In this document: positions 1,359 through 52,853 of the stretch, one piece after another
How the letters are laid out: each line of letters opens with the position of its first letter
Position numbering within the stretch: the first letter of the stretch is position 1
Assembly: GCA_022340485.1 (NCBI GenBank)
Contig: JAJDNX010000101.1
Coordinates: 1 to 53,443 of the forward strand
Reading direction: 5' to 3'
DNA length: 53,443 nucleotides
Source of the DNA: Gammaproteobacteria bacterium
GTDB taxonomy: Bacteria; Pseudomonadota; Gammaproteobacteria; UBA9214
Translations under genes and position numbers: made by a program
Notes under the pieces: model-generated
Databases searched by the model: none
What the model saw: only the letters and a program-made list of their open reading frames with translations
Told to the model about the DNA's origin: nothing

Positions 1359-1844
1359 ATGGGCAAGTTGAGGCACGCAATCAATCTGGGGTTGTTTCTA
1401 TTCGCCCTGTGGCTGCTGTTGTCCGGTCATTACACTCCCCTGCTGCTGCTACTGGGGACTGTGTCGACACTGCTGGTGGTGCTGCTGACGACCCGTGCAG
1501 ACCTGATCGACCGGGAGATCCAGCCCGTACTGATCAAACCCTCGGTACTGCTCTACTGGGCCTGGCTGGGTCGGGAAATCGTCAAGTCAAATATTGACGT
1601 CAGCCGCCGCATCCTCAACCCCACTCTGCCCATCAGTCCGACGATTTTCACCCTCAGGGCTACACAGAAAACCGAACTGGGACGGGTCACCTATGCAAAC
1701 TCGATCACCCTGGTGCCGGGCACGGTCACCGTAGACGTCGAAGAGGACCTGTTCACGGTACATGCCCTGACGCAGGAAATCGCAGCAGACCTGAAGCGCG
1801 GTGAAATGAACCGCCGGGTTTGCGAGGTGGAGAAGGTTTTTTAA
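1359..1844 (+). CDS. mnhE: Mrp/Mnh-type Na+/H+ antiporter subunit E
   Basis: 161 aa; ANSITLVPGTVTVDVEEDLFTVHAL motif of MnhE; stop overlaps next start (TAATG). Confidence 0.88.
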   Translation: MGKLRHAINLGLFLFALWLLLSGHYTPLLLLLGTVSTLLVVLLTTRADLIDREIQPVLIKPSVLLYWAWLGREIVKSNIDVSRRILNPTLPISPTIFTLRATQKTELGRVTYANSITLVPGTVTVDVEEDLFTVHALTQEIAADLKRGEMNRRVCEVEKVF

Positions 1845-2131
1845 TGTTCATCGCCGTATCAAGCGTGATTCTGATTGCCATTGCCGTGGGCCTGGTGCGC
1901 GCCATCCGCGGGCCTAGCCTCTATGATCGCGTACTGGCCGCCAACATGATCGGAACACTGACCGTGCTGATGGTCGCCATCCTCGGTTTTATGACCGGAC
2001 GTCCCGAGTTCCTGGATATTGCCCTGGTGTACGTGCTGATCTCCTTCGTGAGCACCCTGGCCGTGCTGCGAGTACACAACCCCGGTGCTGGCACAACGGC
2101 CAGCAGTGTCAAAGGATCCGGGGAACAGTGA
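1844..2131 (+). CDS. mnhF: Mrp/Mnh-type antiporter subunit F
   Basis: RAIRGPSLYDRVLAANMIGT...PEFLDIALVYVLISFV typical MnhF; ATG at 1844 preferred over the 1820 ORF start. Confidence 0.87.
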   Translation: MFIAVSSVILIAIAVGLVRAIRGPSLYDRVLAANMIGTLTVLMVAILGFMTGRPEFLDIALVYVLISFVSTLAVLRVHNPGAGTTASSVKGSGEQ

Positions 2132-2448
2132 TGGACATGGTGCTTGCGGTACTGAGCTGGAGCTGCCTGCTGGGGGGCGCGATCTTCCTGCTGATTGGTG
2201 CACTTGGGGTGCTGCGGTTTCCCGACTTTTATACCCGCCTGCATGCCGTCAGCGTCTGCGACACCCTGGGCGCAGGACTGGTACTGGCGGGATTGATGCT
2301 GCAGGGCGGCTTTAGCCTGGTGACGGTAAAATTGCTGCTGATGTTCTATTTCATGATGTTCACCGGACCGACGGCCGTTCATGCACTGGCCCAGGCGGCC
2401 ATGCAGGGGAAGTTGCAAGCGGTTGTGGATGAGCACGAGCCTGAATAA
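2128..2448 (+). CDS. mnhG: Mrp/Mnh-type antiporter subunit G
   Basis: GAIFLLIGALGVLRFPDFYTRLHA...DTLGAGLVL motif of MnhG; start GTG 2128 or ATG 2131. Confidence 0.87.
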   Translation: MMDMVLAVLSWSCLLGGAIFLLIGALGVLRFPDFYTRLHAVSVCDTLGAGLVLAGLMLQGGFSLVTVKLLLMFYFMMFTGPTAVHALAQAAMQGKLQAVVDEHEPE

Positions 2449-3410
2449 TGGAGAACCTGATAAACGATGTACTGCTCGGGCTGCTGATGATTACCGGCTT
2501 TGCCATCGTGCGCATGAAAAGTCTGCTTGGGGTAACCATGCTGACCAGCATCTACAGCCTGCTATCGGCATCCTTGTTCGTAGTACTGGACGCCGTCGAC
2601 GTTGCCCTCACCGAGGCAGCCATTGGTGCGGGCATTGCAACCGTCCTGATGGTGGCAACGGTTGCCCTCACCACGGACGAGGAAAAAGTGCCGCGGCACA
2701 CCCCGCTACTGCCACTGCTCGTGGTCATGGCAACCGGTGCGGCCCTCATCTACGGCACCCTGGATATGCCACACCACGGCGATCCACTGGCACCCGCACA
2801 CCGCTATGTGGCAGACAGCTATCTGCACGATTCACCAGTGGAAATCGGCGTCCCGAATGTTGTCACCTCGGTGCTCGCGAGTTATCGCGGCTACGACACC
2901 CTCGGCGAGGTGACGGTGATTTTCACTGCCGCCGCCGGTGTACTCGCGTTGCTGGGTTATCGCACCCGCGGGCGAAATATCGAAGCGGCCGGCATCAGGA
3001 AACAGGTTGTGCTGCGTGTCATTGCCAAACTGTTCTTCCCGCTGATCTTGCTGTTTGCACTCTATGTGCAATTTCATGGTGACTATGGCCCCGGTGGCGG
3101 CTTCCAGGCAGGGGTAATCTTTGCCACCGGTTTCATTCTCTATGCCCTGGCCTTTGGACTGGGTACCGCACAACGGCTCATCCCAAGCCAGTTGCTGCGG
3201 ATCCTGGCGGCGGCCGGTGTGCTGATTTATGCGGCTGTCGGCCTCGAGAGCATGCTGCTGGGTGGAAAGTTCCTTGAGTATCGCGTGCTCGCCGATGACC
3301 CCATTGCCGGACAGCACCTCGGCATCCTGCTCATCGAACTGGGTGTCGGAATTACCGTTGCCTCGGTGATGCTGATTATCTATTACGGTTTTGTCAGCCG
3401 GCGGCACTAG
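2448..3410 (+). CDS. Fused DUF4040/MbhD-like + MnhB-like antiporter subunit
   Basis: N-term LTEAAIGAGIATVLMVATV (DUF4040/MbhD-like); middle RGYDTLGEVTVIFTAAAGV; C-term GDYGPGGGFQAGVIFATGFIL (MnhB). Confidence 0.85.
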   Translation: MENLINDVLLGLLMITGFAIVRMKSLLGVTMLTSIYSLLSASLFVVLDAVDVALTEAAIGAGIATVLMVATVALTTDEEKVPRHTPLLPLLVVMATGAALIYGTLDMPHHGDPLAPAHRYVADSYLHDSPVEIGVPNVVTSVLASYRGYDTLGEVTVIFTAAAGVLALLGYRTRGRNIEAAGIRKQVVLRVIAKLFFPLILLFALYVQFHGDYGPGGGFQAGVIFATGFILYALAFGLGTAQRLIPSQLLRILAAAGVLIYAAVGLESMLLGGKFLEYRVLADDPIAGQHLGILLIELGVGITVASVMLIIYYGFVSRRH

Positions 3411-3442
3411 CCTGATAACAACGGCCACAGAACCCGTTCATA

Positions 3443-3514
3443 GCCACGGAAGCACACGGAAAGAATGCTATTAACGAGTTCATCGTTCCATGTTCTTCCG
3501 TGTGCTTCCGTGGC
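3443..3514. repeat. Perfect 19-bp inverted repeat (intergenic palindromic element inside the Mrp operon)
   Basis: gccacggaagcacacggaa (3443-3461) and its exact reverse complement ttccgtgtgcttccgtggc (3496-3514), 34-nt loop. Confidence 0.9.
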
Positions 3515-3561
3515 AATATTTTTACGTTTTTTTAAGTTGCACCTGGATTGGAGAATAACGA

Positions 3562-3918
3562 ATGTCCGAGCTGTTGGGTCACTACAACTACTGGATCGTC
3601 ATCGTCCTGATGATGACCGGATTCTATATCGTTATTGCTCGACCCAACCTGATCAAGAAAGTCATTGGATTGTTTATCTTCCAGACCTCGGTGTTTATTT
3701 TTTTTATCAGCATAGCCAAGGTAGAGGGCGGCACGGCACCGATCATTGAGGAAGGCATCAGTGTCTACTCCAATCCGCTGCCACACGTGCTGATCCTCAC
3801 CGCCATCGTTGTCGGTCTTGCGACCACAGCCCTCGGGCTGGCGCTGGTGGTACGCATCAGGGAAGCCTACGGAACCATCAACGAAGACGACATCCACGTG
3901 CAGGACGAGGAAAGATGA
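3562..3918 (+). CDS. mnhC: Mrp/Mnh-type antiporter subunit C (NuoK-like)
   Basis: Three-TM NuoK-like protein; NPLPHVLILTAIVVGLATTALGLALVVRI motif. Confidence 0.87.
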   Translation: MSELLGHYNYWIVIVLMMTGFYIVIARPNLIKKVIGLFIFQTSVFIFFISIAKVEGGTAPIIEEGISVYSNPLPHVLILTAIVVGLATTALGLALVVRIREAYGTINEDDIHVQDEER

Positions 3919-3928
3919 GTTTCACACT

Positions 3929-5413
3929 GTGCTGAGCACACACCTTCCCGCCCTGCAGGTCGTGTTACCGCTGGCCTCCGCCCCGGTATGCCTGCTGTTG
4001 CGCCATCCGCGCCATGCATGGGCCTGTGCACTGACAATCAGCTGGCTGGTTCTTGCAATTGCGGTCATGCTGGTGCAGCAGGTCGCTGCCACGGGGACAA
4101 TTTCCTATGCCATCGGCGCCTGGGCAACCCCCTGGGGGATTGAGTACCGTATCGACATGGCCGGCGCCCTGATGATTCTTGTCGTCGCCACCATTGGTGC
4201 CGTGGTACTGCCGTTTGCCGGGCGCAGCATTCAGCAGGAGATTCGCAAAAAACACAGCGGCCTGTTCTATACCTGTTTTCTGTTATGCCTGGCTGGTCTG
4301 CTGGGTATTGTGGTCACCGGTGATGCCTTCAATCTGTTCGTATTTCTGGAAATCTCCTCGCTGTCATCCTATGTGCTGATCAGCCTCGGCTGCACGCGCC
4401 GCGCCCTCACCGCTGCCTTCCAGTACCTGGTGATGGGCACCATCGGCGCCACCTTTATCCTGATCGGTGTCGGCTTGCTGTACATGCTCACCGGTACCCT
4501 CAACATGGTGGATATTTCACAACGGCTGACTGAAGTGGCGGATACACGCACCATACGAGTCGCCTTTGCCTTCGTGACCGTGGGCGTCAGTATCAAGCTG
4601 GCGCTGTTCCCGCTGCACCTGTGGCTGCCAAATGCCTATACCTTTGCCCCGTCGGTGGTTTCGGCGTTCTTCGCGGCCACCGCGACCAAGGTCGGGATCT
4701 ACGTGTTGTTGCGGTTGTTCTTCACGGTGTTCGGTATCGGCTTTTCCTTTGTGGCCATGCATGTCGGCGAGATCATGATGCTGCTGGCAGCAGCGGCCAT
4801 GATGGTTGCCTCGCTGGTCGCCATTTTCCAGAACAATGTCAAGCGCATGCTGGCCTACTCGAGCGTGGCCCAGATCGGCTACATCATCCTCGGCATCAGC
4901 CTTGCCAGCCGCGATGGTGTCGCGGCAGGCATGATCCACCTGTTCAACCATGCGCTGATCAAGTGTGCACTGTTCCTCTCGCTTGGCTGTATTTTTCTGC
5001 GCCTGGGCTCGGTTGAACTCCAGGACATGCGCGGTCTTGCGAAGAGGATGCCCTGGACCATGGCCGCATTTGTAGCGGGCGGCCTGAGCCTGATCGGACT
5101 GCCACTTACGTCCGGGTTCATCAGCAAATGGTACCTGGTCGGCGCAGCTCTCACGGACGGCTACTGGCCGCTGGCCGTGCTGATCCTGCTGAGCTCACTG
5201 CTGGCACTGATCTACATCTGGCGCGTGGTGGAGACCGCTTACTTTCAGGTACCCGGTGCCGGAATGCCTTTGGTAAAGGAGGCGCCGGCCAGCATGCTGA
5301 TACCGGCCTGGCTGCTGATCGGCGCGAACTTCTACATAGGCGTTGATGCCAGCCTGGTCTCCGGAATTGCGCACCAGGCAGCGGGCATCCTGATCGAGCA
5401 GGGGGTCCGATGA
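3929..5413 (+). CDS. mnhD: Mrp/Mnh-type antiporter subunit D (proton-antiporter M domain), copy 1
   Basis: NLFVFLEISSLSSYVL, IKLALFPLHLWLPNAYTFAPSVVSAFFAATATKVGIY; GTG 3929 is the likely start rather than the 3809 ORF start. Confidence 0.87.
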   Translation: MLSTHLPALQVVLPLASAPVCLLLRHPRHAWACALTISWLVLAIAVMLVQQVAATGTISYAIGAWATPWGIEYRIDMAGALMILVVATIGAVVLPFAGRSIQQEIRKKHSGLFYTCFLLCLAGLLGIVVTGDAFNLFVFLEISSLSSYVLISLGCTRRALTAAFQYLVMGTIGATFILIGVGLLYMLTGTLNMVDISQRLTEVADTRTIRVAFAFVTVGVSIKLALFPLHLWLPNAYTFAPSVVSAFFAATATKVGIYVLLRLFFTVFGIGFSFVAMHVGEIMMLLAAAAMMVASLVAIFQNNVKRMLAYSSVAQIGYIILGISLASRDGVAAGMIHLFNHALIKCALFLSLGCIFLRLGSVELQDMRGLAKRMPWTMAAFVAGGLSLIGLPLTSGFISKWYLVGAALTDGYWPLAVLILLSSLLALIYIWRVVETAYFQVPGAGMPLVKEAPASMLIPAWLLIGANFYIGVDASLVSGIAHQAAGILIEQGVR

Positions 5414-41555: not shown

Positions 41556-42068
41556 ATGTTGTCTCCATCGACAAACCTGCCCCTGCAATTCCTCAACCTC
41601 TGGTTGACGCTGCTGCTGATCTGGCTGATTGCCAACGGCACACTGGCCACCGACACCGTACTCGTCGGGGTTTTGGTCACCGCAGCCATCGCGCTGGCAT
41701 TCGCCGCCTTTGCGCGTGTCTACAGCGTGATCCGCTGGTCGCCACGGGTGATCTACAATTACCTGCTCTACCTGGGCGTATTTCTCCACGAACTGGTGAA
41801 GGCCAATCTCAACGTAATGGGCTACGTGTTCAGCAGGCACATCGATATTCACCCCGGCATCGTCGAGATCAAGACCCACCTGCAGTCGCCCATCGGCCGC
41901 CTCGCCCTGGCCAATTCCATCACCCTGACACCGGGTACCCTGGTTGTGGACATGCAGGGCGATTCGCTGTTCATCCACTGGATCAACGTTACCGAGACGG
42001 ATCCGGTTGCGGCCACGCAGGTGATTGCCGGACGCTTCGAGAAATACCTGAAGGTGATCTATGGCTGA
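41556..42068 (+). CDS. MnhE/MbhA-like subunit of complex I-like membrane complex
   Basis: LALANSITLTPGTLVVDMQGDSLFIHWI; first gene of second Mrp-type operon. Confidence 0.87.
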   Translation: MLSPSTNLPLQFLNLWLTLLLIWLIANGTLATDTVLVGVLVTAAIALAFAAFARVYSVIRWSPRVIYNYLLYLGVFLHELVKANLNVMGYVFSRHIDIHPGIVEIKTHLQSPIGRLALANSITLTPGTLVVDMQGDSLFIHWINVTETDPVAATQVIAGRFEKYLKVIYG

Positions 42069-42321
42069 GATTGCACTGACCACTGCCCTGGTGCTGATCT
42101 TCTTCAGCATCGTGTTCGGCATCATCCGACTGGTCATCGGACCCGACACGGTCGACCGCGTGGTCGCCATCGACCTGCTGACCATTGTCGCCATCGCGGT
42201 AATCGCGCTGCTGGCACATATTGGCAACCGTTATATCTACCTCGACGTGGCCCTGGTCTACGGCCTGCTGAGTTTCCTCGGTGTGCTCGCCGTTGCCCGT
42301 TTTCTTGAAAAAGGCATCTAG
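42061..42321 (+). CDS. MnhF/MbhB-like subunit
   Basis: RLVIGPDTVDRVVAIDLLTIVAIAVIALL...IYLDVALVYGLLSFLG. Confidence 0.87.
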   Translation: MAEIALTTALVLIFFSIVFGIIRLVIGPDTVDRVVAIDLLTIVAIAVIALLAHIGNRYIYLDVALVYGLLSFLGVLAVARFLEKGI

Positions 42322-42342
42322 TCGCAAGGTAATCCACTACTT

Positions 42343-42582
42343 ATGATTGCACTACTGACACTGCTGCTATGTGGCGGCATCCTTATCAGCGGCCTGCTCG
42401 CCGTGCTGCTCGACAACCTGGTCAGCGCCGTGATCAGCGCCGGTCTCGCCAGCCTGTTCGCGGCCGTGGTCTATGTGGTGCTGGCGGCACCCGACGTCGC
42501 CATGACCGAGGCCTCGATCGGCTCGGGTCTGTCGACCATGATTTTCCTGTATGCCATTCGCAAGACACGCGGCAAGGACTGA
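42343..42582 (+). CDS. DUF4040/MbhD-like subunit
   Basis: LLDNLVSAVISAGLASLFAAVVYVVLAAPDVAMTEASIGSGLSTMIFL. Confidence 0.87.
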   Translation: MIALLTLLLCGGILISGLLAVLLDNLVSAVISAGLASLFAAVVYVVLAAPDVAMTEASIGSGLSTMIFLYAIRKTRGKD

Positions 42583-42585
42583 GCC

Positions 42586-42930
42586 ATGGGTGAGTTGATC
42601 GGCAGTCTGTTCCTGCTGGGTGGTGCGATCTTTCTGTTCTCGGCCGGCCTTGGTGTACTGCGCATGCCGGACACCTATAACCGTATCCAGACCGGGACCA
42701 AGGCGACTACCCTGGGCACCATCCTGATCCTGGTCGGGCTGGCCTTCCTGCACCCGGCCTGGGCCCTCAAACTGATTATTCTGATCTTCTTCGTGATGCT
42801 TACCAACCCGGTGTCCTCCCACGCACTGGCACGCGCTGCCCATGCGATTGGCACGGCGGAGACCGAGTCCACCGTGATCGACCAGCTGGAAACACCCGCG
42901 AACGAGGATACCCGGGAGCAAGTGGAATGA
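42586..42930 (+). CDS. MnhG/MbhC-like subunit
   Basis: GGAIFLFSAGLGVLRMPDTYNRIQTGTKATTLGTILILVG. Confidence 0.88.
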   Translation: MGELIGSLFLLGGAIFLFSAGLGVLRMPDTYNRIQTGTKATTLGTILILVGLAFLHPAWALKLIILIFFVMLTNPVSSHALARAAHAIGTAETESTVIDQLETPANEDTREQVE

Positions 42931-42961
42931 ACCGCGCAACACGGCAGGCCCTGCCAGGGAA

Positions 42962-43711
42962 ATGGGCCATATGATCAAGCGCATTGTCATCCTGCTGGTG
43001 CTGCTCATGCTGGCCTTCATCTTTGTCAACCTCGCTGCCAGCTACAGCGAGCAGACATCGCTGTCGGCACTGGGCCACTACTACGTCGAGCAGGGGCCGT
43101 CGGAACTTGGCGCTGCCAACCTGGTGACGGCTGTGGTAGTTACCTACCGTGGCCTGGATACCCTCGGCGAGGTCACGGTACTGTTCATCTCCGCCGCCGG
43201 TGTCGGTCTGCTGTTGCGCCGCACCCGGCGCAAGGATGACCACGAGGACCTCGAACAGGGAGACCGCGCAGAGGAAACGGCCATCGCACGCAAGCCCGCC
43301 AGTGAAATTGTCGAGACAGCGACCGAACTGCTGCTACCGATGGTCATCCTGTTTGGTATCTATGTGTTCCTGAACGGCCACCTGTCCCCCGGTGGCGGCT
43401 TCCAGGGCGGTGCCATTATCGCCTCCGGCACCATGTTCCTGTTGCTGGCCCTGCCCGAGTCACACATCAGCCGCCTGATGATCGCCATCACCGAATCACT
43501 CTCCGGCTTCAGCTATGTCGTCATCGGCGTGCTCGGCGTGATCCTGGCCGGCGGCTTCCTCGACAACCGCATCATCGGCCTCGGCACCTATGGCCATCTC
43601 TTCAGCGCCGGTGCCATACCGCTGATTTATGTGTTTGTCGGCCTCAAGGTAGGTTTTGAGCTCAGCGCAGTACTCGACCGCTTCCGCAAGGAGGACAGCG
43701 GACCGCTATGA
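42962..43711 (+). CDS. MnhB/MbhE-F-like subunit
   Basis: TYRGLDTLGEVTVLFISAAGVGLLL (MbhE-like) plus NGHLSPGGGFQGGAIIASGTMFLLLA (MnhB/MbhF). Confidence 0.87.
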   Translation: MGHMIKRIVILLVLLMLAFIFVNLAASYSEQTSLSALGHYYVEQGPSELGAANLVTAVVVTYRGLDTLGEVTVLFISAAGVGLLLRRTRRKDDHEDLEQGDRAEETAIARKPASEIVETATELLLPMVILFGIYVFLNGHLSPGGGFQGGAIIASGTMFLLLALPESHISRLMIAITESLSGFSYVVIGVLGVILAGGFLDNRIIGLGTYGHLFSAGAIPLIYVFVGLKVGFELSAVLDRFRKEDSGPL

Positions 43712-44088
43712 GTTTCTTTGGCGACCTGCAGATTTCAATGATCGTACTGTGCAGCGGCCTCGGGCTGGTCCTGATCGGCCTGTGGGGCATACTGACACAG
43801 CGCAATCTCATTCGCATGATCATCGGCTTTTCGCTTCTGGATACCGGGATTCACATGGTGATGGTCTCGATTGGTTATGTAACCGGCGGCACCGCACCGA
43901 TCATCAATGACGACGTGCCCATGGCCACAGCGGTTAGCCGCGTCGTTGACCCGGTGCCGTCCGCGCTGGTACTGACCGCAATCGTCATCGGCCTCGGCGT
44001 TACTGCCGTGATGCTGTCTTTCGCGGTACGCATTTTCCGGGCACGCAGGACACTGATGATCGATGAATGCACGGAGTCGAAATGGTAG
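43708..44088 (+). CDS. MnhC/MbhG-like (NuoK-like) subunit
   Basis: DPVPSALVLTAIVIGLGVTAVMLSFAVRI; ATGA overlap. Confidence 0.88.
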   Translation: MSFFGDLQISMIVLCSGLGLVLIGLWGILTQRNLIRMIIGFSLLDTGIHMVMVSIGYVTGGTAPIINDDVPMATAVSRVVDPVPSALVLTAIVIGLGVTAVMLSFAVRIFRARRTLMIDECTESKW

Positions 44089-47000
44089 AAGGCTTCATCA
44101 CCCAGGTACTGCTGCAGCCGCTGGGCATCTATGTTGTCGCGCTGGGTGCAGGCTTCCTGGTTCCACTGTTCGACCGCGCGCACCGCAGCTCGGCCATCCT
44201 GCTGTTCTTCCTGGCCCTTGCCGGCATGGTTGCGATTGCCGGCATCAACCTGCTAGCAATCCTGAACGGCGCCGCCCCGATCCAGATCGAAACTGCAGGT
44301 ATTGCGCCGCCATTTGCCATCAACCTGCGCTTTGGACTGTACGAAGGCGGCTTCGTACTCGCGGTCAACAGCATCGCGCTGCTGGGCGCTCTGCACTGGC
44401 TGCCGTCACTGCGGCAACATGCCTCCGCGCTGTTGCTGTACCTGATCATGGTGATGGGCATCAACGGGATGGTGATGACCCGCGACCTGTTCAACCTGTT
44501 TATCTTTATCGAAATCACCTCGATCGCCACCTATGCCCTGATCGGCATGGAACGCACCGGCTCCGTACTCGCTGCCGGCTTCAAGTACATTATCGCGACC
44601 TCGGTGGCCTCGGCATTCTTCCTGCTGGGGACGATCTTCCTGTATTACCTTACCGGTACACTGAATATCGATGGCATGGTGGCACAACGCGAGCTGATCA
44701 GCGGCCCGATTGGTTTTATCGCGACGCTGTTTTTGCTGACCAGCCTGCTGATCGAACTGAAGCCCTATCCCGCTAATGGCTGGGGACTGGACGTATACGA
44801 AACCGCGCCCGGCGGCATTGCAGCACTGATCTCCGTCGGCGTCTCCGCCGGCGTGTTTTTCGCATTGTTGAAGACGCTGCCGCTGCTGGACAATTACCTG
44901 AGCAGCATCGCCGTGGTCGGCGGTGCCACCTTCCTGCTCTCCAACCTGATTGGCCTGAAACAGGACAATGCCAGACGCCTGCTTGGCTATTCCTCCATTG
45001 GCCAGATGGGGCTGCTGACACTGGCGCTGGCGGCGACGGTACAGCTTGGCATCGAGGCACAATTACCGCTGGTCGCGGGCGGTCTGTTCATCAACCACCT
45101 GCTGGCCAAGGCAGGACTGTTCTGGCTGGCGGATCTGGTCAACCGCAACTCCACCAGGGACTGGTCGGTGCTTGCCGGACGGCCAGGGCGGTTACTGTTG
45201 TTCGGCATCCTGCTGAGCGCACTGGTTGGCCTGCCGCCCTTCCCCGGCTTCTGGGCAAAGTGGGTACTGGTGACGGAACTCGCCGCCGGCGGCCTGTATC
45301 CCTGGATCACCGTGGTGCTGCTGGGCTCGCTGCTGGAGGCCGCCTACCTGTTCCGCTGGTTTACGCAGGCCCTGCAGACGCGGGAATCCGATACACCCGA
45401 CACCATCCGCCTCGAGAGTCTGCTGCCAGTCGCCCTCGCCGCCCTGCTGCTGTTTGCCACCGGCTATGGCATGGCCGTGCAACTCGAGAGTGACACCCTG
45501 ATCATGTTCCTGCCACTGCTGGCCGGTACCGCACTGTGGCTGCTGGACGGCCTGCCGGGCCTTCTCAAGAGCCTGCTGATGCTGGTCGTGGTCGCTGCCG
45601 GCGGTGCCTGGCTGACGCTCGACCTGGAAGGCCTGAACCGCATCTTCGGTTTCATTCTCGTCGGCGGTGGTGTGCTGCTCAGCCTGGCAACCCAGTACCG
45701 CAGCGACGTCCGCAAGGGCTTCTACCCTTTGCTTGGCATCCTGCTGCTATCGCTGGCGACGCTGTTGCGCGCGCATACCAGCCTGGAGTTCTTCTTTAGC
45801 TGGGAGCTCATGACGCTGAGTTCCTACCTGCTGGTGACACTTGGCCGTGGCGGTGCGAAACCGGCGCTGACCTACCTGCTGTTCTCGCTCGCTGCGGCCT
45901 ACTTCATCCTTGCCGGATTCGCCCTGGCCTATGCGGCCAGCGGTAGCCTCGAGCTGGCGGCACTTGGGGATACGGGTAGCTCCATGGGCCTGGTGTTCAG
46001 CCTGCTGGCTGCCGGCTTCGTTATCAAGACCGGTGGCCTCGGCGTGCACATCTGGGTACCGGGTACATACGGGGAGGCAGACGACGACTTCACTGCAGTG
46101 CTCTCCGCCGTGGTCAGCAAGGCCGCCATCTTTGGCCTGCTGCTGGTCGCCGCACAGCTCGGCATACGTTCCGACATCGGCCTCGACCCGGCCTACGTGC
46201 TTGGCTGGATCGGCATGCTCACCGCGACCTTCGGCGCATTGATGGCAGTATTCCAGGAAGACATCAAGAAACTGCTCGCCTACTCCAGCATGGGCCAGCT
46301 CGGCTACATCGTCACCGGAATCGCACTGATGAGCCATCTCGGCTGGGTGGCCGCGCTCTACCTGACGGTAAATCATTTCCTCTTCAAGGGCATCCTGTTC
46401 CTTGCCGTCGCCGGCGTGGTGCTGCGCACCAGCGAGCGCCTGATGTACAAGATGGGCGGGCTGATCAAGAACATGCCGTTCACCTTCGTCGCCACCATGA
46501 TCGCCATCATTGCCATGTCCGGCGTACCCCCACTGACCGGCTTTGGCGGCAAGTGGCTGCTGTTCAATGCCATGATGGAGAAGGGCTGGTACTGGCTGGC
46601 GGCACTGGCCTTCTTCTCCAGCGCGGTGGCCTTCCTTTACATGTACCGGCTGCTGCATACCGTGTTTCTGGGACAGCGCAAGCTGGAACATGCGCAATTG
46701 CGAGAGGCCCCCGCCATTCTGCTGGTACCCCAGTTCCTGCTGATCGGCATCATTATGGTGTTTTCCGCCTATCCAAAACTGCTGCTGGAGCCGCTGTCGA
46801 GCGCAATCAGCCCGTGGCTGGCCGGCAACCTGGTATGGGACGGTCTGTCGCTGCACACCCACCTCGGTTACTGGAATGCCCCCATGATCATGGGTGTTGT
46901 CGCGGGGGTGTGGATGATACCGCTGCTGTTCCTGCTACTGATGTCGCTGACCCTGAAGATCCAGAAGGTCGGGCAGTTCAATATCGTGTTTGCCGCAGAA

Positions 47001-47240
47001 CGCCCGCACCGTCCGGAAGACACGCATTTTGCCTATAACTTTTTCGCGCACTACGACCGCGCCCTCGGCTTCCTGGTGAAGCCGCGAGCGACTGCCTTCT
47101 GGAACAGCATCGTCGAGTGGAGCCATACCCTGGCCGCGTCCTTGCGAATTTTCTATAACGGCAACGGCCAGACCTATGCATTGTTCATCGTGATGTATCT
47201 GGTGGTGTTGTTCCTGGTGAATGGAGGGCTGCAGCTGTGA
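44067..47240 (+). CDS. Tandem fusion of two MrpD/NuoL-M-N-like antiporter subunits (1057 aa)
   Basis: Two antiporter-M modules: NLFIFIEITSIATYALIG/IELKPYPANGWGLDVYETAPGG and FFFSWELMTLSSYLLVTLG/IKTGGLGVHIWVPGTYGEADDDFTAVLSAVVSKAAIF; start 44067 or ATG 44082. Confidence 0.9.
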   Translation: MHGVEMVEGFITQVLLQPLGIYVVALGAGFLVPLFDRAHRSSAILLFFLALAGMVAIAGINLLAILNGAAPIQIETAGIAPPFAINLRFGLYEGGFVLAVNSIALLGALHWLPSLRQHASALLLYLIMVMGINGMVMTRDLFNLFIFIEITSIATYALIGMERTGSVLAAGFKYIIATSVASAFFLLGTIFLYYLTGTLNIDGMVAQRELISGPIGFIATLFLLTSLLIELKPYPANGWGLDVYETAPGGIAALISVGVSAGVFFALLKTLPLLDNYLSSIAVVGGATFLLSNLIGLKQDNARRLLGYSSIGQMGLLTLALAATVQLGIEAQLPLVAGGLFINHLLAKAGLFWLADLVNRNSTRDWSVLAGRPGRLLLFGILLSALVGLPPFPGFWAKWVLVTELAAGGLYPWITVVLLGSLLEAAYLFRWFTQALQTRESDTPDTIRLESLLPVALAALLLFATGYGMAVQLESDTLIMFLPLLAGTALWLLDGLPGLLKSLLMLVVVAAGGAWLTLDLEGLNRIFGFILVGGGVLLSLATQYRSDVRKGFYPLLGILLLSLATLLRAHTSLEFFFSWELMTLSSYLLVTLGRGGAKPALTYLLFSLAAAYFILAGFALAYAASGSLELAALGDTGSSMGLVFSLLAAGFVIKTGGLGVHIWVPGTYGEADDDFTAVLSAVVSKAAIFGLLLVAAQLGIRSDIGLDPAYVLGWIGMLTATFGALMAVFQEDIKKLLAYSSMGQLGYIVTGIALMSHLGWVAALYLTVNHFLFKGILFLAVAGVVLRTSERLMYKMGGLIKNMPFTFVATMIAIIAMSGVPPLTGFGGKWLLFNAMMEKGWYWLAALAFFSSAVAFLYMYRLLHTVFLGQRKLEHAQLREAPAILLVPQFLLIGIIMVFSAYPKLLLEPLSSAISPWLAGNLVWDGLSLHTHLGYWNAPMIMGVVAGVWMIPLLFLLLMSLTLKIQKVGQFNIVFAAERPHRPEDTHFAYNFFAHYDRALGFLVKPRATAFWNSIVEWSHTLAASLRIFYNGNGQTYALFIVMYLVVLFLVNGGLQL

Positions 47241-48163
47241 TTGCGGAATGGTTTGGCAGGGCCGGTAATTTCAGCCTGACGCTGCTGATCGTGACAGTCT
47301 ACGGCCTGCTCGTGGGTGCTTTCATCGAACGCACCATCGCGAAAGTACAGGGTCGCATCGGCATCCCCTACCGGCAGCCATTTATCAACATCCTGAAAAC
47401 CCTGGTCAAGCGCACCGCCGTCAGCCACGGCATCATGTTCTACCTCGGACCGGTATTCCGCATCGCCGGCGGCATTGGCACACTGGCCTTCATCCCGGTG
47501 ATCTACGGCAGCGAAACCTTTGCGAATTTCAGCTACGCCGGCGACCTGTTCCTGGTGATCTACTTTATGTTCTTCGGCCAGCTGGGCATGGCGCTGGGTG
47601 CAGGAGAAAGCGGCCATCCCTACAGTGCCATCGGCATCGCCCGCGGCCTGTCGCAGATGACGGCCTACGAGGTACCATTCGCGCTGGCCGTGATCTCCAT
47701 CGTGATCCAGTACGACACCCTGTCGATCACCGAGATCGTAGCCGCGCAGCAGGGCGGCTGGCAGCACTGGACACTGTTCACCAACTGGGTGGCAACACTG
47801 GCTGCCATGCTCGCCTTCCTCGGCATGACGGGCTATTCGCCGTTTGACATCTTCCTGGCTCCTCAGGAGATCCCGATTGGCCCGCCGACCGAGTTCCACA
47901 GCGCTTACCTGTCACTGCTGCAGACCAACCGTGCCCTGTTCGGAGCAACCAAGCTGGTGTTGTTCATGAACCTGTTTTTCGGCGGTGCCACCGGCTGGAT
48001 CGAATTGATGATCAAGACCCTGGCAATCTACATGGTGGCGGTGGTCGTCGGCGTGGCCTTTCCGCGCTTCCGCGTCGACCAGTCGATCCGTTTCTTCTTC
48101 AAGATCCCGACGCTGATCGGGATAATTTCCATAATTTATGTGCAGATGATGTTCACGTCCTGA
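47237..48163 (+). CDS. NuoH/MbhM-like membrane subunit
   Basis: GAFIERTIAKVQGRIGIPYRQPFINILKTLVKR; AYEVPFALAVISI; PFDIFLAPQEIPIGPPTEFHSAY. Confidence 0.88.
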   Translation: MIAEWFGRAGNFSLTLLIVTVYGLLVGAFIERTIAKVQGRIGIPYRQPFINILKTLVKRTAVSHGIMFYLGPVFRIAGGIGTLAFIPVIYGSETFANFSYAGDLFLVIYFMFFGQLGMALGAGESGHPYSAIGIARGLSQMTAYEVPFALAVISIVIQYDTLSITEIVAAQQGGWQHWTLFTNWVATLAAMLAFLGMTGYSPFDIFLAPQEIPIGPPTEFHSAYLSLLQTNRALFGATKLVLFMNLFFGGATGWIELMIKTLAIYMVAVVVGVAFPRFRVDQSIRFFFKIPTLIGIISIIYVQMMFTS

Positions 48164-48206
48164 GCAGTACAATCAGACTGTCAAGCCGTAGTGTGAGGCA
48201 CTTACG

Positions 48207-48839
48207 ATGAAAAAGACTCCGAGCACCCTTAGCACGCTGGAAAATGCGGGACTCTCGGCCGAGGATCAGCTGCTGTTCTCCAATGCGCGGCCCAGGCCCT
48301 ACGAGCCCTATCCGATCAAGGCGATAGAGGATTTCGCCAACTGGGCACGCGCCAACTCGCTGTGGATCCTGGCCTTTGGCACCGGCTGCTGTTCGATCGA
48401 GCTGCGCCCGCTGATGACGGCGCGTTTCGACGCCAGCCGCTTTGGCGTCGCCGGCCGGCCTACCCCGCGGCAGTCATCGGTATTCATCATTGGCGGCTAC
48501 GTCTCGGTCAAAACACTGAAGCGCATTGTGCGCAGCTATGAGCAGATGCAAGGGCCGAAATTCATTATCGCGCTCGGCAGCTGCCCGGCGAATGGCGGCA
48601 TGTACTTCGACAGCTACAACACCATCAACCAGTTCGATCTGTACCTGCCGGTGGACCTGTACGTCACCGGTTGCATGCCGCGGCCGGAGGCACTGCTCGG
48701 TGCGATCCTGGAACTGCAGGATGACATCAAGGCGGGCAAGTGTGACGGCGCCAACCGCTATATCGAACACTTCGACGAGTACAAGGCCAACCAGAAGAAG
48801 GTCATCAAGGACTGGAACATGCCGGACTACAACTGGTAA
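48207..48839 (+). CDS. NuoB/MbhJ-like subunit with four N2-cluster Cys (tandem CC)
   Basis: FGTGCCSIELRPLMTARFDASRFGVAGRPTPRQSSVFIIGG; ALGSCPANGG; VTGCMPRPEALL. Confidence 0.92.
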   Translation: MKKTPSTLSTLENAGLSAEDQLLFSNARPRPYEPYPIKAIEDFANWARANSLWILAFGTGCCSIELRPLMTARFDASRFGVAGRPTPRQSSVFIIGGYVSVKTLKRIVRSYEQMQGPKFIIALGSCPANGGMYFDSYNTINQFDLYLPVDLYVTGCMPRPEALLGAILELQDDIKAGKCDGANRYIEHFDEYKANQKKVIKDWNMPDYNW

Positions 48840-48872
48840 CCCCATGACAGACGATCGAACCAAGGAAATAGA

Positions 48873-49418
48873 ATGATGAGTGAACTGCTGGACAGACTGG
48901 TGCGTGATTTCGGTGTCACGGACATCACCGAGCGCCCTCCGGCAATCACCACCCTGAAAGTGAGCAAGGAAAACGGCGAGCGGCTGATCCGCGAACTGCG
49001 CGACCGCGAGGGCTTCACCCACCTCAACTTCATCGCCTGCACCGACTGGATCGAGGATGGTATTTTCAGGCTGATCTATATGCTGCACAACTACGACAGC
49101 AAACAGAACCTCGGCGTACACATCGATATCAAGCGCGACCATGCCGAGATGACCTCCATCCATACGCTGTGGGCGCAAGCCTGGACCTACCAGCGTGAGT
49201 TGCGCGAGATGTATGGCATCCACTTTCCCGGAAGTCCGCGGCTCGAGGAGGATTTCTGCCTCGAAGGCTGGGACGCCATGCCGCCAATGCGGCGTGATTT
49301 CGATACTGCGAAATACAGCGCGGAACGCTTTGGCCACCGCGAGGGCCGCGTCAGCCTGGTGCCGCGCGATCACATGAAGGTACAGCTCTACCCGAACCGC
49401 GGAGGGGATGAATCATGA
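48873..49418 (+). CDS. NuoC/MbhK-like subunit
   Basis: LNFIACTDWIEDGIFRLIYMLHNY; SIHTLWAQAWTYQRELREMYGIHFPGSP. Confidence 0.88.
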   Translation: MMSELLDRLVRDFGVTDITERPPAITTLKVSKENGERLIRELRDREGFTHLNFIACTDWIEDGIFRLIYMLHNYDSKQNLGVHIDIKRDHAEMTSIHTLWAQAWTYQRELREMYGIHFPGSPRLEEDFCLEGWDAMPPMRRDFDTAKYSAERFGHREGRVSLVPRDHMKVQLYPNRGGDES

Positions 49419-50584
49419 CCTTGGTAACGGGACACTCCGCCGCGCTGGACTTCGCCCAGCCCGACCCGGTCGACCTGTCGTCGGGTAAATACGTCAAGCT
49501 GTGGCAGGGACCGCAACACCCCGGTATCACCGGCAACATGTCATTGGAACTGGTACTCGACGGTGACACCATCATCGAGTGCAAGACCCATGTCGGGTAC
49601 CTGCACCGCGGCTTCGAGAAACTCATGGAGCAGCGCACCTTCATCCAGAACTTCACCGTGGTGTGCCGCATCGCGGTACCCGAGCCGGCCTTCAACGAAT
49701 ACCTGTACGCGGCCGCAATCGAGGCCATCAGCGGCGTTCAGTCACCGCCGCGCGCGCAGTGGCTGCGCACGCTGAACCTGGAAATGATGCGCCTCGCCAG
49801 CTTCCTGATGTGGATCGGCGGCCAGGGCGGCGCGTTCGGCCAGTATACCGTAGCCAACTGGAGCCTCACCTACCGCGACTACGTGCTCGACCTGTTCGAG
49901 GAAATGACAGGGGCGCGCATCTACCATATGTACATGGTGCCCGGCGGTGTGCGCGCCGGCCTACCGGCTGGATTTGAGAAGCGCATTCTCAAGCTGATGG
50001 ATGACACCGACAAGCTGCTCGACCAGATCGAACGCGTGATGTACAACAACGTGGTATTCAAGGCACGTGCCAAGGGGCTCGGCGTCATTACCCGGGAAAT
50101 GGTGGACCCGTACGGCGTGGTCGGCCCGAATGCACGCGCCAGCGGTTTCCGACGCGACCTGCGCAAGGACGAACCCTATCTGGTGTATGACCAGCTCGAT
50201 TTCAATGTCATCAGCGGCAGTGCCGGTGATGCCTACGAACGCGCGTATCTGCGCTTGCAGGAAACCCGCCAGAGCGTCAACCTGATTCGCCAGGTCATCG
50301 CCGGTGCACCGTCGGATGGCCCGTTCCAGGCCGACATGCCGAACCTGCTGCACTGGAAGGTGCCGGCCGGTGAAACCTATGTGAAAGCAGAGTGCACCCG
50401 TGGCGAGTATGGCTACTACATGGTCACCGACGGCACCGAGATCGTGCGCCGCGTGCACGTGCGCGGTCCGAGCTACACCCATGCCATCGCACTGATGGAA
50501 CGCCTTGCGGTCGGCACCAATATCGCGGACATCGCCGGACTGATGGTATCACTGCACACCTATCCGCCCGAGATCGAGCGCTAA
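49415..50584 (+). CDS. NuoD/MbhL-like subunit without NiFe-site cysteines
   Basis: WQGPQHPGITGNMSLELVLDGD; VGYLHRGFEKLMEQRTFIQNF; PPRAQWLRTLNLEMMRLASFLMWIG; CTRGEYGYYMVTDGT; ATGA overlap with previous CDS. Confidence 0.92.
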   Translation: MTLVTGHSAALDFAQPDPVDLSSGKYVKLWQGPQHPGITGNMSLELVLDGDTIIECKTHVGYLHRGFEKLMEQRTFIQNFTVVCRIAVPEPAFNEYLYAAAIEAISGVQSPPRAQWLRTLNLEMMRLASFLMWIGGQGGAFGQYTVANWSLTYRDYVLDLFEEMTGARIYHMYMVPGGVRAGLPAGFEKRILKLMDDTDKLLDQIERVMYNNVVFKARAKGLGVITREMVDPYGVVGPNARASGFRRDLRKDEPYLVYDQLDFNVISGSAGDAYERAYLRLQETRQSVNLIRQVIAGAPSDGPFQADMPNLLHWKVPAGETYVKAECTRGEYGYYMVTDGTEIVRRVHVRGPSYTHAIALMERLAVGTNIADIAGLMVSLHTYPPEIER

Positions 50585-50596
50585 GCAGGAAAGATC

Positions 50597-52405
50597 ATGA
50601 ACCTGAAAGACTTGCTATCACCGTTCTACGTCTGGCAACGCGCCTTCGAGAAGCCCTATACCTCCATACGGCCCATACAGGAGCGACCCGGTGCCGCCGC
50701 CTATCGTGGCTTTCATATCAATATCAGCGAGGAATGCATCGGTTGCGGCACCTGCCACAAGATCTGCCAGAACGACGCCATCGACATGGTAAGAGTCGAG
50801 ACCTATGAAGGTCGCAGTGGTGACAGCGGCTTGCGCCCGCGCTTCGACTACGGCCGCTGCTGCTGGTGCGCCCTGTGCGTGGACATGTGTCCCGCCGGTT
50901 CGCTGCGCATGAGCAACGAGTACACCTGGATTACCAGCGACCCGACGGAGTTTCACTTCACCGCGGGCGTCGAGCACACCACCTGGCAGGACAATCCTCT
51001 GGGATACCACCGCGCGGAAGGCTACCACCTGTACCCGCCGAAGCGCATAGAAATGGAAATGCTACCCCCGGAGGTGAGCGTACAGTCGTTTGATGAAGTC
51101 GTCGCGGGTTACAGCGAACCACAGGCGCTGCTGGAGGCCGACCGCTGCATCGAATGCGGCATCTGCGTTGCCACCTGCCCGGCCCACATGGACGTTCCCG
51201 ACTACATCCGCAGTATCCGTGACCGCGATTACGAGAAGGGCCTGCAACTGATGTACCGCACCAACCCCTTCCCCGCCACCTGCGGGCGTATCTGCACGCG
51301 CCGTTGCGAGTCGGTATGCCCGGTCGGCATCCAGGGAGAAGCGATCGCCATTCGCTGGCTGAAACGCTTCATCGTCGACCAGATCCAGCCGCAGGACTAC
51401 GCCCGCATTCTGGCCGACCAGACCGGAAACAGTGGCCACCGCGTCGCCATCATCGGTGCCGGTCCCGGTGGCCTGAGTGCGGCCTATTACCTGCGCAAGC
51501 AAGGCCACGCGGTGACCGTATTCGAGGCGCAGGCAAGTGCCGGCGGCATGCTGCGCTACGGCGTGCCCAGCTATCGCCTGCCGGATGCAGACCTCGACAA
51601 GGACATCAATTACATCGTGTCACTCGGCGTGGACATTCGCTACAACACGCGCATCGGCAAGGACATTCGCTTCGAACAACTGCTGCAGGACTTCGATGCG
51701 CTGTTCCTGTCCACCGGCCTGTCGGTACCCTCCAGCATGCGCATCCACGGCGAGGAGCACCCGCGCGTGCTGTCCGGCCTGCAGGTGCTTGCCGATGTCG
51801 CCAGTGGTCGCGACCCGGGCGTCGGTCAAAAGGTCGCCGTCATCGGTGGCGGCAACGTTGCCATGGACGCGGCGCGGGTCTCGCGGCGTCTTGGCGCCGA
51901 GGTCACCATCCTTTACCGTCGGCGGATCGCAGACATGCCGGCGGATACCGAGGAAATACATGAATCACAGGAAGAAGGCTGCCACATCGTCACCCAGGCG
52001 ATCCCGGTAGAAATCATTGCGGCTAGCAGCCCGCAACAGGTTTCGATCAAGTGGGGTGAGGCCGAAATGGTACAGGACCCCAAGGGCGGTCGGCCACGCC
52101 CGGTGCTACAGGAAGACCGGATGCATGTGGAGACCTACGACTGCATCATTTCGGCCATCGGCCAGGGCAGCGACCTCGAGTTCCTGTCAAAGGAGATACA
52201 GGATCAGCTGGCCATCGAGTGGGGCAAATTCGCGCCGGGTGAATACCAGCACACCTCGCTGCAAAAGGTCTTCGTCGGCGGTGACGTTGCCAATCGCACC
52301 GCCGATGCCATCAGCGCCATCGAGGACGGCCATCACGCCGCGCGCGGCATCGACCGGTTCCTGAACCCGGACGCCCGGACGCATACAGACCAGGAGGTGA
52401 ACTGA
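50597..52405 (+). CDS. NuoI/MbhN-like 2[4Fe-4S] ferredoxin fused to GltD/NfnL-like NAD(P)H FAD oxidoreductase
   Basis: CIGCGTCHKIC and CCWCALCVDMCPAG; then CIECGICVATCPAHMDVPDYI...CGRICTRRCESVCPVG, FAD fold VAIIGAGPGGLSAAYYL, NAD(P) fold VAVIGGGNVAMDAARVSRRLGAEVTILYRRR. Confidence 0.93.
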   Translation: MNLKDLLSPFYVWQRAFEKPYTSIRPIQERPGAAAYRGFHINISEECIGCGTCHKICQNDAIDMVRVETYEGRSGDSGLRPRFDYGRCCWCALCVDMCPAGSLRMSNEYTWITSDPTEFHFTAGVEHTTWQDNPLGYHRAEGYHLYPPKRIEMEMLPPEVSVQSFDEVVAGYSEPQALLEADRCIECGICVATCPAHMDVPDYIRSIRDRDYEKGLQLMYRTNPFPATCGRICTRRCESVCPVGIQGEAIAIRWLKRFIVDQIQPQDYARILADQTGNSGHRVAIIGAGPGGLSAAYYLRKQGHAVTVFEAQASAGGMLRYGVPSYRLPDADLDKDINYIVSLGVDIRYNTRIGKDIRFEQLLQDFDALFLSTGLSVPSSMRIHGEEHPRVLSGLQVLADVASGRDPGVGQKVAVIGGGNVAMDAARVSRRLGAEVTILYRRRIADMPADTEEIHESQEEGCHIVTQAIPVEIIAASSPQQVSIKWGEAEMVQDPKGGRPRPVLQEDRMHVETYDCIISAIGQGSDLEFLSKEIQDQLAIEWGKFAPGEYQHTSLQKVFVGGDVANRTADAISAIEDGHHAARGIDRFLNPDARTHTDQEVN

Positions 52406-52406
52406 C

Positions 52407-52853
52407 ATGAATAGCGTGGATGAAATACTCGACTATGCCATTGACCAGGAACAGCAGGCCGCGGACTTCTACGCAGACCTGGCCGGCCGTGCCGAAAAGG
52501 CCGGCATGAAGGAAATCCTGCTGGATTTCGCCGCCGAGGAACAAAGCCACAAGCAACGGCTGCTGGCGGTAAAAGCCGGTGACCACAAGCTGACACCGGA
52601 ACAGCAGGTGCTGGACCTGAAGATCTCCGACTACCTCGTTGAGGTCGGTGCCAGCGCCAACATCTCTTATCAGGATGCACTGATCGTTGCCATGAAGCGG
52701 GAGCGTGCCGCCTTCCAGCTGTACAGCGACATGGCGGCAAAGGTGCCGGAAGGACATTTGAAGGAGGTCCTGCAGGGTCTCGCCAAGGAAGAGGCCAAAC
52801 ACAAGCTGTTCTTCGAATCGGAGTACGACGACCGCGTACTGCGGGATAACTAA
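52407..52853 (+). CDS. Ferritin-like / rubrerythrin-related di-iron protein
   Basis: EQQAADFYADLAGRAEKAGMKEILLDFAAEEQSHKQRL and RERAAFQLYSDMAAKVPEGHLKEVLQGLAKEEAKHKLFFE with two ExxH motifs; 1 nt after previous stop. Confidence 0.85.
   Translation: MNSVDEILDYAIDQEQQAADFYADLAGRAEKAGMKEILLDFAAEEQSHKQRLLAVKAGDHKLTPEQQVLDLKISDYLVEVGASANISYQDALIVAMKRERAAFQLYSDMAAKVPEGHLKEVLQGLAKEEAKHKLFFESEYDDRVLRDN

Follow-up and report, generated by a model that had tools for sequence, protein, structure and literature searches.

What can a NuoD-like subunit do when it carries neither the cysteines that bind a NiFe center nor the residues that complex I uses for quinone? The question is raised by one gene in the stretch of DNA analyzed here, a 53,443-nucleotide contig from a gammaproteobacterium of the UBA9214 lineage that is referred to below as the window. 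A preliminary description, made from the sequence alone, considered the pocket of the encoded protein unusual and its substrate unknown. The absence of both a NiFe site and a canonical quinone site holds, but a characterized family, the MBS sulfane-sulfur reductases, has the same pocket. The emptied pocket is a family trait and is explained already by published work on MBS. What the description overlooked is the partner subunit, NuoB, which has C61-C62 where MbsJ has C28-G29, a difference that bears on the MBS mechanism.

An emptied pocket shared across a family

The gene lies in an MBX/MBS-type (sulfane-sulfur reductase) operon at positions 41556-52405 and encodes its L subunit; the operon is complete, with the full subunit set present (Table 1). 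The genes are arranged in the order MnhE, MnhF, MbhD, MnhG, MbhE/MnhB, MnhC, fused double antiporter, NuoH, NuoB, NuoC, NuoD, and NuoI-GltD. The features that mark the MBS/MBX family are largely evident, in that L lies outside complex I and nearest to MbsL, the quinone His and Tyr are absent, and an Mrp arm is accompanied by M, J, K, L, and N subunits. The two antiporter subunits are fused in the window-type clade and separate in the Thiodiazotropha, Rectinema, and L082 loci. Apart from this operon, the window also carries a second, stand-alone Mrp-type antiporter set (MnhE, MbhD/E-MnhB fusion, and MnhD) at 1359-5413.

Table 1. Positions in the window of the operon genes, the gene that follows them, and the residues discussed in the text
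Feature	Position	Strand	Basis or equivalence
MnhE-like subunit, first gene of the operon	41556..42068	+	PF01899
MnhF-like subunit	42061..42321	+	PF04066
MbhD-like subunit	42343..42582	+	PF13244, E 5e-19
MnhG-like subunit	42586..42930	+	PF03334
MbhE-MnhB-like subunit	42962..43711	+	PF04039, PF20501
MnhC-like subunit	43708..44088	+	PF00420
Fused double antiporter subunit (MbsH-MbsH' equivalent), 1057 aa	44067..47240	+	two PF00361 stretches
Membrane anchor (NuoH/MbsM-like)	47237..48163	+	PF00146
B subunit (NuoB/MbsJ-like), 210 aa, proximal [4Fe-4S] cluster	48207..48839	+	PF01058; best PDB match 6u8y_J, E 1.2e-58
Vicinal C61-C62 (TGC TGT) of B	48387..48392	+	alignment with relatives and complex I
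C subunit (NuoC/MbsK-like)	48873..49418	+	PF00329
L subunit (NuoD/MbsL-like), 389 aa, gene under study	49415..50584	+	PF00346, E 2e-67; best PDB match 6u8y_L, E 1.9e-92
T39 of L	49529..49531	+	position of Nqo4 H38 (sequence alignment)
A87-V88-P89-E90 of L	49673..49684	+	A87 = MbsL C85, V88 = Nqo4 Y87 (alignment)
A140 of L	49832..49834	+	position of Nqo4 D139
Y383 of L	50561..50563	+	position of MbsL C385
Electron-input subunit, NuoI-like ferredoxin domain plus GltD/NfnL-like FAD-NAD(P)H module, 602 aa	50597..52405	+	PF14691, PF07992, Fer4
Ferritin/rubrerythrin-like protein, 148 aa, after the operon	52407..52853	+	PF02915

Comparisons of the L subunit with known proteins place it with MBS. In a PDB search, MbsL (1.9e-92) scored ahead of Nqo4 (2.8e-66) and MbhL (8.8e-35), and MbsL was again the best match in a family-profile search (5.7e-138 versus 4e-98). 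A tree of 77 L rows splits the family that includes MbsL from complex I with support of 100/100. The predicted fold (pLDDT 86.9) superposes on both 6u8y_L and complex I over approximately 360 residues, and in the structure list the complex I chains (Z ~46, identity 31-34%) rank just above 6u8y_L (Z 45.3, identity 39%), a near tie (46.3 versus 45.3), so the predicted fold alone does not settle the family.

Residue equivalences were obtained by aligning the window L subunit with the actual Nqo4 and MbsL sequences from the PDB search. They rest on sequence alignment because superposition returns ranges rather than residue pairs and because loop 34-40 is of low confidence in the model. In the translated open reading frame, residues 32-40 are GPQHPGITG and residues 78-96 are QNFTVVCRIAVPEPAFNEY. 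The preliminary description had put Thr39 at the second His of the complex I motif GPQHPxxHG and, by a hand alignment that proves correct, Val88 at the quinone-binding Tyr; in the proper alignment both placements are exact. Its assignment of Ala87 and Glu90 to the hydrogenase Cys positions is borne out as well, with E90 (codon 49682-49684), at the second N-terminal NiFe-Cys position, matching MbsL E88. The interval that it gave, 49529-49684, is bounded precisely by the T39 and E90 codons, and the DPCxxC that it reported missing is indeed absent from a C-terminus that reads HTYPPEIER. Thus, none of the four NiFe cysteines is present (A87, E90, Y383, and no DPCxxC). One further loss had gone unmentioned, which is that A140 replaces the Asp of Nqo4 D139, the residue that pairs with His38 in complex I.

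The preliminary description had also proposed looking at conservation among orthologs, and this was done with 82 family L subunits. V88 is invariant (82/82), while residue 39 is T in 51, E in 28, H in two, and V in one. Residue 87 is C in 56, A in 23, S in two, and N in one, and residue 383 is C in 43, Y in 38, and V in one. The residual NiFe cysteines are kept in only part of the family, as fits their being dispensable. No Cys, His, or Tyr from elsewhere in the chain that could replace the lost positions was found in the alignment or among the 82 relatives, and the His/Tyr pair or Cys ligands that had been named as speaking against an empty site did not come to lie there. Y170 is invariant and H171 and Y173 are common in the family, but these residues are shared with MbsL, and the same segment has His/Tyr in complex I too. 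Quinone chemistry by L through a substitute His or Tyr was rejected on these grounds, and conservation in the 82 relatives together with the codon data led to the rejection of chance or of a sequence or assembly error as the source of the substitutions.

Some relatives depart from the common pattern. L080 and L083 have His at the complex I H38 position (GMHGN), with Val88 and residual cysteines that are MBS-like, and a Thiodiazotropha-type clade has Glu at this position. A Celaenobacter locus (L082:9992-17117) carries two NuoD-like operons in tandem; in its first L, both residual cysteines are missing and residue 39 is Val, and its second L is only ~32% identical to the window L.

The MBS of P. 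furiosus (PDB 6u8y; earlier called MBX) reduces polysulfide or organic trisulfide, and its MbsL is reported to lack counterparts of Nqo4 H38 and Y87 and to face a hydrophobic chamber (PMC7684303). With C85A/C385A in MbsL, activity is comparable to that of the wild type. The site of polysulfide reduction is the proximal [4Fe-4S] cluster in MbsJ, via an iron without a Cys ligand, and treatment of this open cluster with ferricyanide causes loss of iron and of 98% of activity (PMC7684303). The window complex resembles this enzyme in its subunit set, RIxVPEP motif, and J-type cluster subunit, and in an L subunit without either the Nqo4 H38/Y87 counterparts or a NiFe site. It differs in that NuoI is fused to a GltD-like NAD(P)H module, whereas MBS has a separate MbsN fed by ferredoxin. 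Furthermore, H and H' are fused, the counterparts of C85, C385, and J C25 are lost, and C62 is gained.

Bacterial MBX or Mrp-Mbx complexes (Thermotoga, Endoriftia) and Ehr are likewise hydrogenase-related, Mrp-type, and without NiFe ligands, but the corresponding reports (PMC9431562, PMC11636981, PMC6349859) describe neither a Cys-Cys B subunit nor an L subunit that has lost all of its residual cysteines. Complex I (NuoBCD-HI) shares the fold of L and a vicinal Cys pair in B, whereas the window has no H38/Y87/D139 counterparts, no NuoEFG, and an Mrp-type antiporter arm. Group 4 NiFe hydrogenases (MBH, FHL) have a common ancestry with the window complex and an Mrp-type membrane arm, but the CxxC pairs at both ends of their large subunit are absent from the window L, and together with the far lower MbhL score this led to the rejection of a NiFe hydrogenase. 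Published work likewise uses the absence of NiFe cysteine pairs to separate MbxL and NuoD from hydrogenases (PMC6085437).

Vicinal cysteines at the proximal cluster

By sequence, the B subunit departs from the three-Cys proximal cluster (Cys-Gly in J) that is a feature of the family. Among 74 B subunits, 69 have Gly at residue 62 and five have Cys (the window, L004, L011, L012, and L013), while C61, C126, and C156 are invariant (74/74). The window instead has the complex I arrangement of a vicinal Cys pair and two further Cys in NuoB. In the alignment, C61, C62, C126, and C156 correspond to the four complex I ligands of N2, and the tandem Cys pair of NDUFS7 and NdhK falls exactly at residues 61-62 with no indel. 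In the tree built from L, a different gene, the five Cys-Cys rows group together as a single clade (95/90) within the Cys-Gly rows, which implies that the pair was regained and not kept from a complex I-like ancestor.

The Cys-Cys sample is small and comprises three lineages, two of which (L011 and L013) are binned in one MAG. The B genes compared have diverged strongly at synonymous sites (dS of 0.56 for the window and L004 and 1.8 for the window and L011), with dN/dS of ~0.05-0.07, and even for C62 both TGC and TGT are used in the clade. Compared with its sisters, the clade has 12 fixed positions in ~1,690 residues of five subunits, of which seven are in B, three in L, two in N, and none in C or H. 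Four of the fixed B sites (62, 63, 125, and 128) are no more than three residues away from a ligand Cys (hypergeometric p 0.003, or 0.014 without site 62, values that are descriptive only, as the clade was picked after the motif was seen), and one fixed L change, T92A, is located in the VPEP loop.

No new Cys-Cys lineage was found among the B matches examined, and a search of 369 gammaproteobacterial genomes gave only four strong matches. No description of the variant was found in a literature search that mostly covered sources outside subscription journals, and the Cys-Cys B subunit and its NAD(P)H-linked context look new. In the genus of the window organism (G000-G012), MBX is patchy (five of 13 genomes), and both the Cys-Cys and the Cys-Gly types of B occur but in different parts of the tree, a scatter that suggests horizontal transfer.

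The added cysteine may close, or make labile, the open iron needed by the MBS mechanism. If C62 is a ligand of the fourth iron, the published mechanism, which uses a Cys-free iron, cannot run unless that ligand is labile. We infer that C62 is a labile or protective fourth ligand and does not signal a change of substrate. This view is preferred because it has been proposed, though it is debated, that the adjacent cysteines of complex I come off the cluster one after the other upon reduction (quoted in PMC7684303), and because the open MBS cluster is ferricyanide-sensitive. It can be suggested, tentatively, that one gammaproteobacterial MBS/MBX lineage has re-evolved complex I-type vicinal-Cys ligation, with matching changes around it and with the quinone-protonating residues still absent.

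Electron supply and gene neighborhood

Among PDB entries, the NuoI-GltD fusion matches NfnL-type proteins and MbsN, and it directly follows L in all family loci that cover the region. Its electron donor is probably NAD(P)H, with NADPH the most likely form; NADPH is probably to be favored over NADH on the basis of NfnL homology and the neighboring genes. No assayed member of this fusion type is reported in the literature found. Genes for glycogen or pentose-phosphate metabolism (glycogen phosphorylase, GlgX, phosphoglucomutase, G6PDH, or 6PGDH) flank the operon, in several arrangements, in 11 of the 15 gammaproteobacterial loci with flanking sequence versus one of 48 other loci (Fisher 2e-8, which overstates independence in that the gammaproteobacterial loci share ancestry). 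No direct report of a link between glycogen and sulfur was found in the literature. At two loci (L010:15690-18082 and L019:14648-16827), NuoEF-fusion and NuoG-like (diaphorase-like) genes adjoin the operon beside phosphoglucomutase. Also, orthologs of the ferritin/rubrerythrin-like gene are kept directly after the operon in gammaproteobacterial loci, and the NCBIfam entry PRK12775, a protein joining GltD and ferritin domains, hints at a functional link with this gene. With regard to sulfur, S0 induces mbxA in T. maritima (PMC9431562), and a putative Mrp-Mbx complex has been noted in the sulfur-oxidizing symbiont Endoriftia (PMC11636981).

A probable role in sulfur reduction and its rivals

The L subunit probably serves an ion-translocating MBX/MBS-type complex that takes in NAD(P)H and passes electrons from the proximal NuoB cluster to sulfane sulfur, with L only lining the chamber and C62 being labile or protective. 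The likely role is that of an ion-pumping NADPH:polysulfide oxidoreductase in a sulfur-oxidizing autotroph, a reading also favored by the dsrA, soxB, and RuBisCO pieces and the separate canonical complex I NuoD in the genome. Family identity, operon, residues, clade structure, and neighborhood were obtained directly, and beyond these we infer donor, substrate, direction, and the role of C62. The fused N subunit would oxidize NAD(P)H, most likely NADPH, at its GltD-like flavin and relay the electrons through its 4Fe-4S clusters to the proximal cluster in NuoB. From there they would reach a sulfane-sulfur substrate (polysulfide or persulfide) in a hydrophobic chamber bounded by B, L, and the membrane anchor, and the energy released would drive the Mrp-type antiporter arm. 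With T39, V88, and A140, the chamber would stay free of the side chains through which complex I protonates quinone, and L would have shed its two remaining NiFe-legacy cysteines because they are not needed. In the window lineage, the proximal cluster would have been rebuilt with C62 as a second vicinal cysteine. In the simplest story, stored glycogen would supply NADPH, whose electrons would pass to sulfane sulfur, either stored or external, while ions are pumped.

Among the points against this explanation are that C62 could fill the ligand-free iron site that the MBS mechanism needs and that in an autotroph the complex could run in reverse, from sulfide to NADP+. For C62 itself, a neutral Gly-to-Cys change of the single-base type, with no effect on ligation or chemistry, is rather doubtful. 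One base change is enough (GGC/GGT to TGC/TGT), and the spare cysteine of MbsJ, C25, is not a cluster ligand (PMC7684303), but C62 has been kept in three lineages at dS of 0.56 to >1.7 with dN/dS of ~0.05 and is accompanied by fixed changes at B63, B125, B128, and L92. Alternatively, the Cys-Cys lineage might have become, or be becoming, a quinone reductase, in which a fully Cys-ligated N2-type cluster would transfer electrons by an outer-sphere route to quinone in the same chamber. The complete set of N2 ligands in a loop without indels, the concentration of the clade's fixed changes around the cluster, and the fact that the only other Cys-Cys sequences in this analysis are those of complex I/NDH all fit such a conversion. 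It is nevertheless quite improbable, given that none of the H38, Y87, and D139 counterparts has been regained, with V88 still Val, that the genome has a separate canonical complex I NuoD, and that no change has become fixed in the NuoH- and NuoC-like subunits of the clade.

Reverse running, in which an ion gradient would drive electrons from sulfide or persulfide to NADP+ for CO2 fixation, is a serious alternative, though an unlikely one in view of the gammaproteobacterial neighbors, which are NADPH-producing glycogen and pentose-phosphate enzymes, and of the closest other clades, which are Cloacimonadota, Bacteroidota, and Delongbacteria MAGs, many of them expected to be fermentative and not sulfide-oxidizing. 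On its side are the dsrA, soxB, and RuBisCO pieces in the genome of the window, the many family relatives that are sulfur-oxidizing autotrophs or symbionts, and the expression neighbors that the Endoriftia Mrp-Mbx has in common with the reductive TCA cycle (PMC11636981). Both directions may belong to one reversible enzyme, in which case this alternative overlaps with the sulfane-sulfur reductase reading.

The role of the tandem N2 cysteines in complex I is debated, and at the equivalent position MBS is proposed to require an open iron. The exchange of Cys-Gly for Cys-Cys in an otherwise MBS-type enzyme, beside close sisters that have not made it, constitutes a minimal natural comparison. If complex I-type ligation was indeed re-evolved, the lineage would be a natural intermediate whose cluster, closed or switchable, serves sulfur or some other acceptor, and this would affect the mechanisms put forward for MBS as well as for complex I. 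For the organisms themselves, NADPH-type input and glycogen and pentose-phosphate neighbors suggest anoxic energy conservation from stored glycogen and sulfur in sulfur oxidizers.
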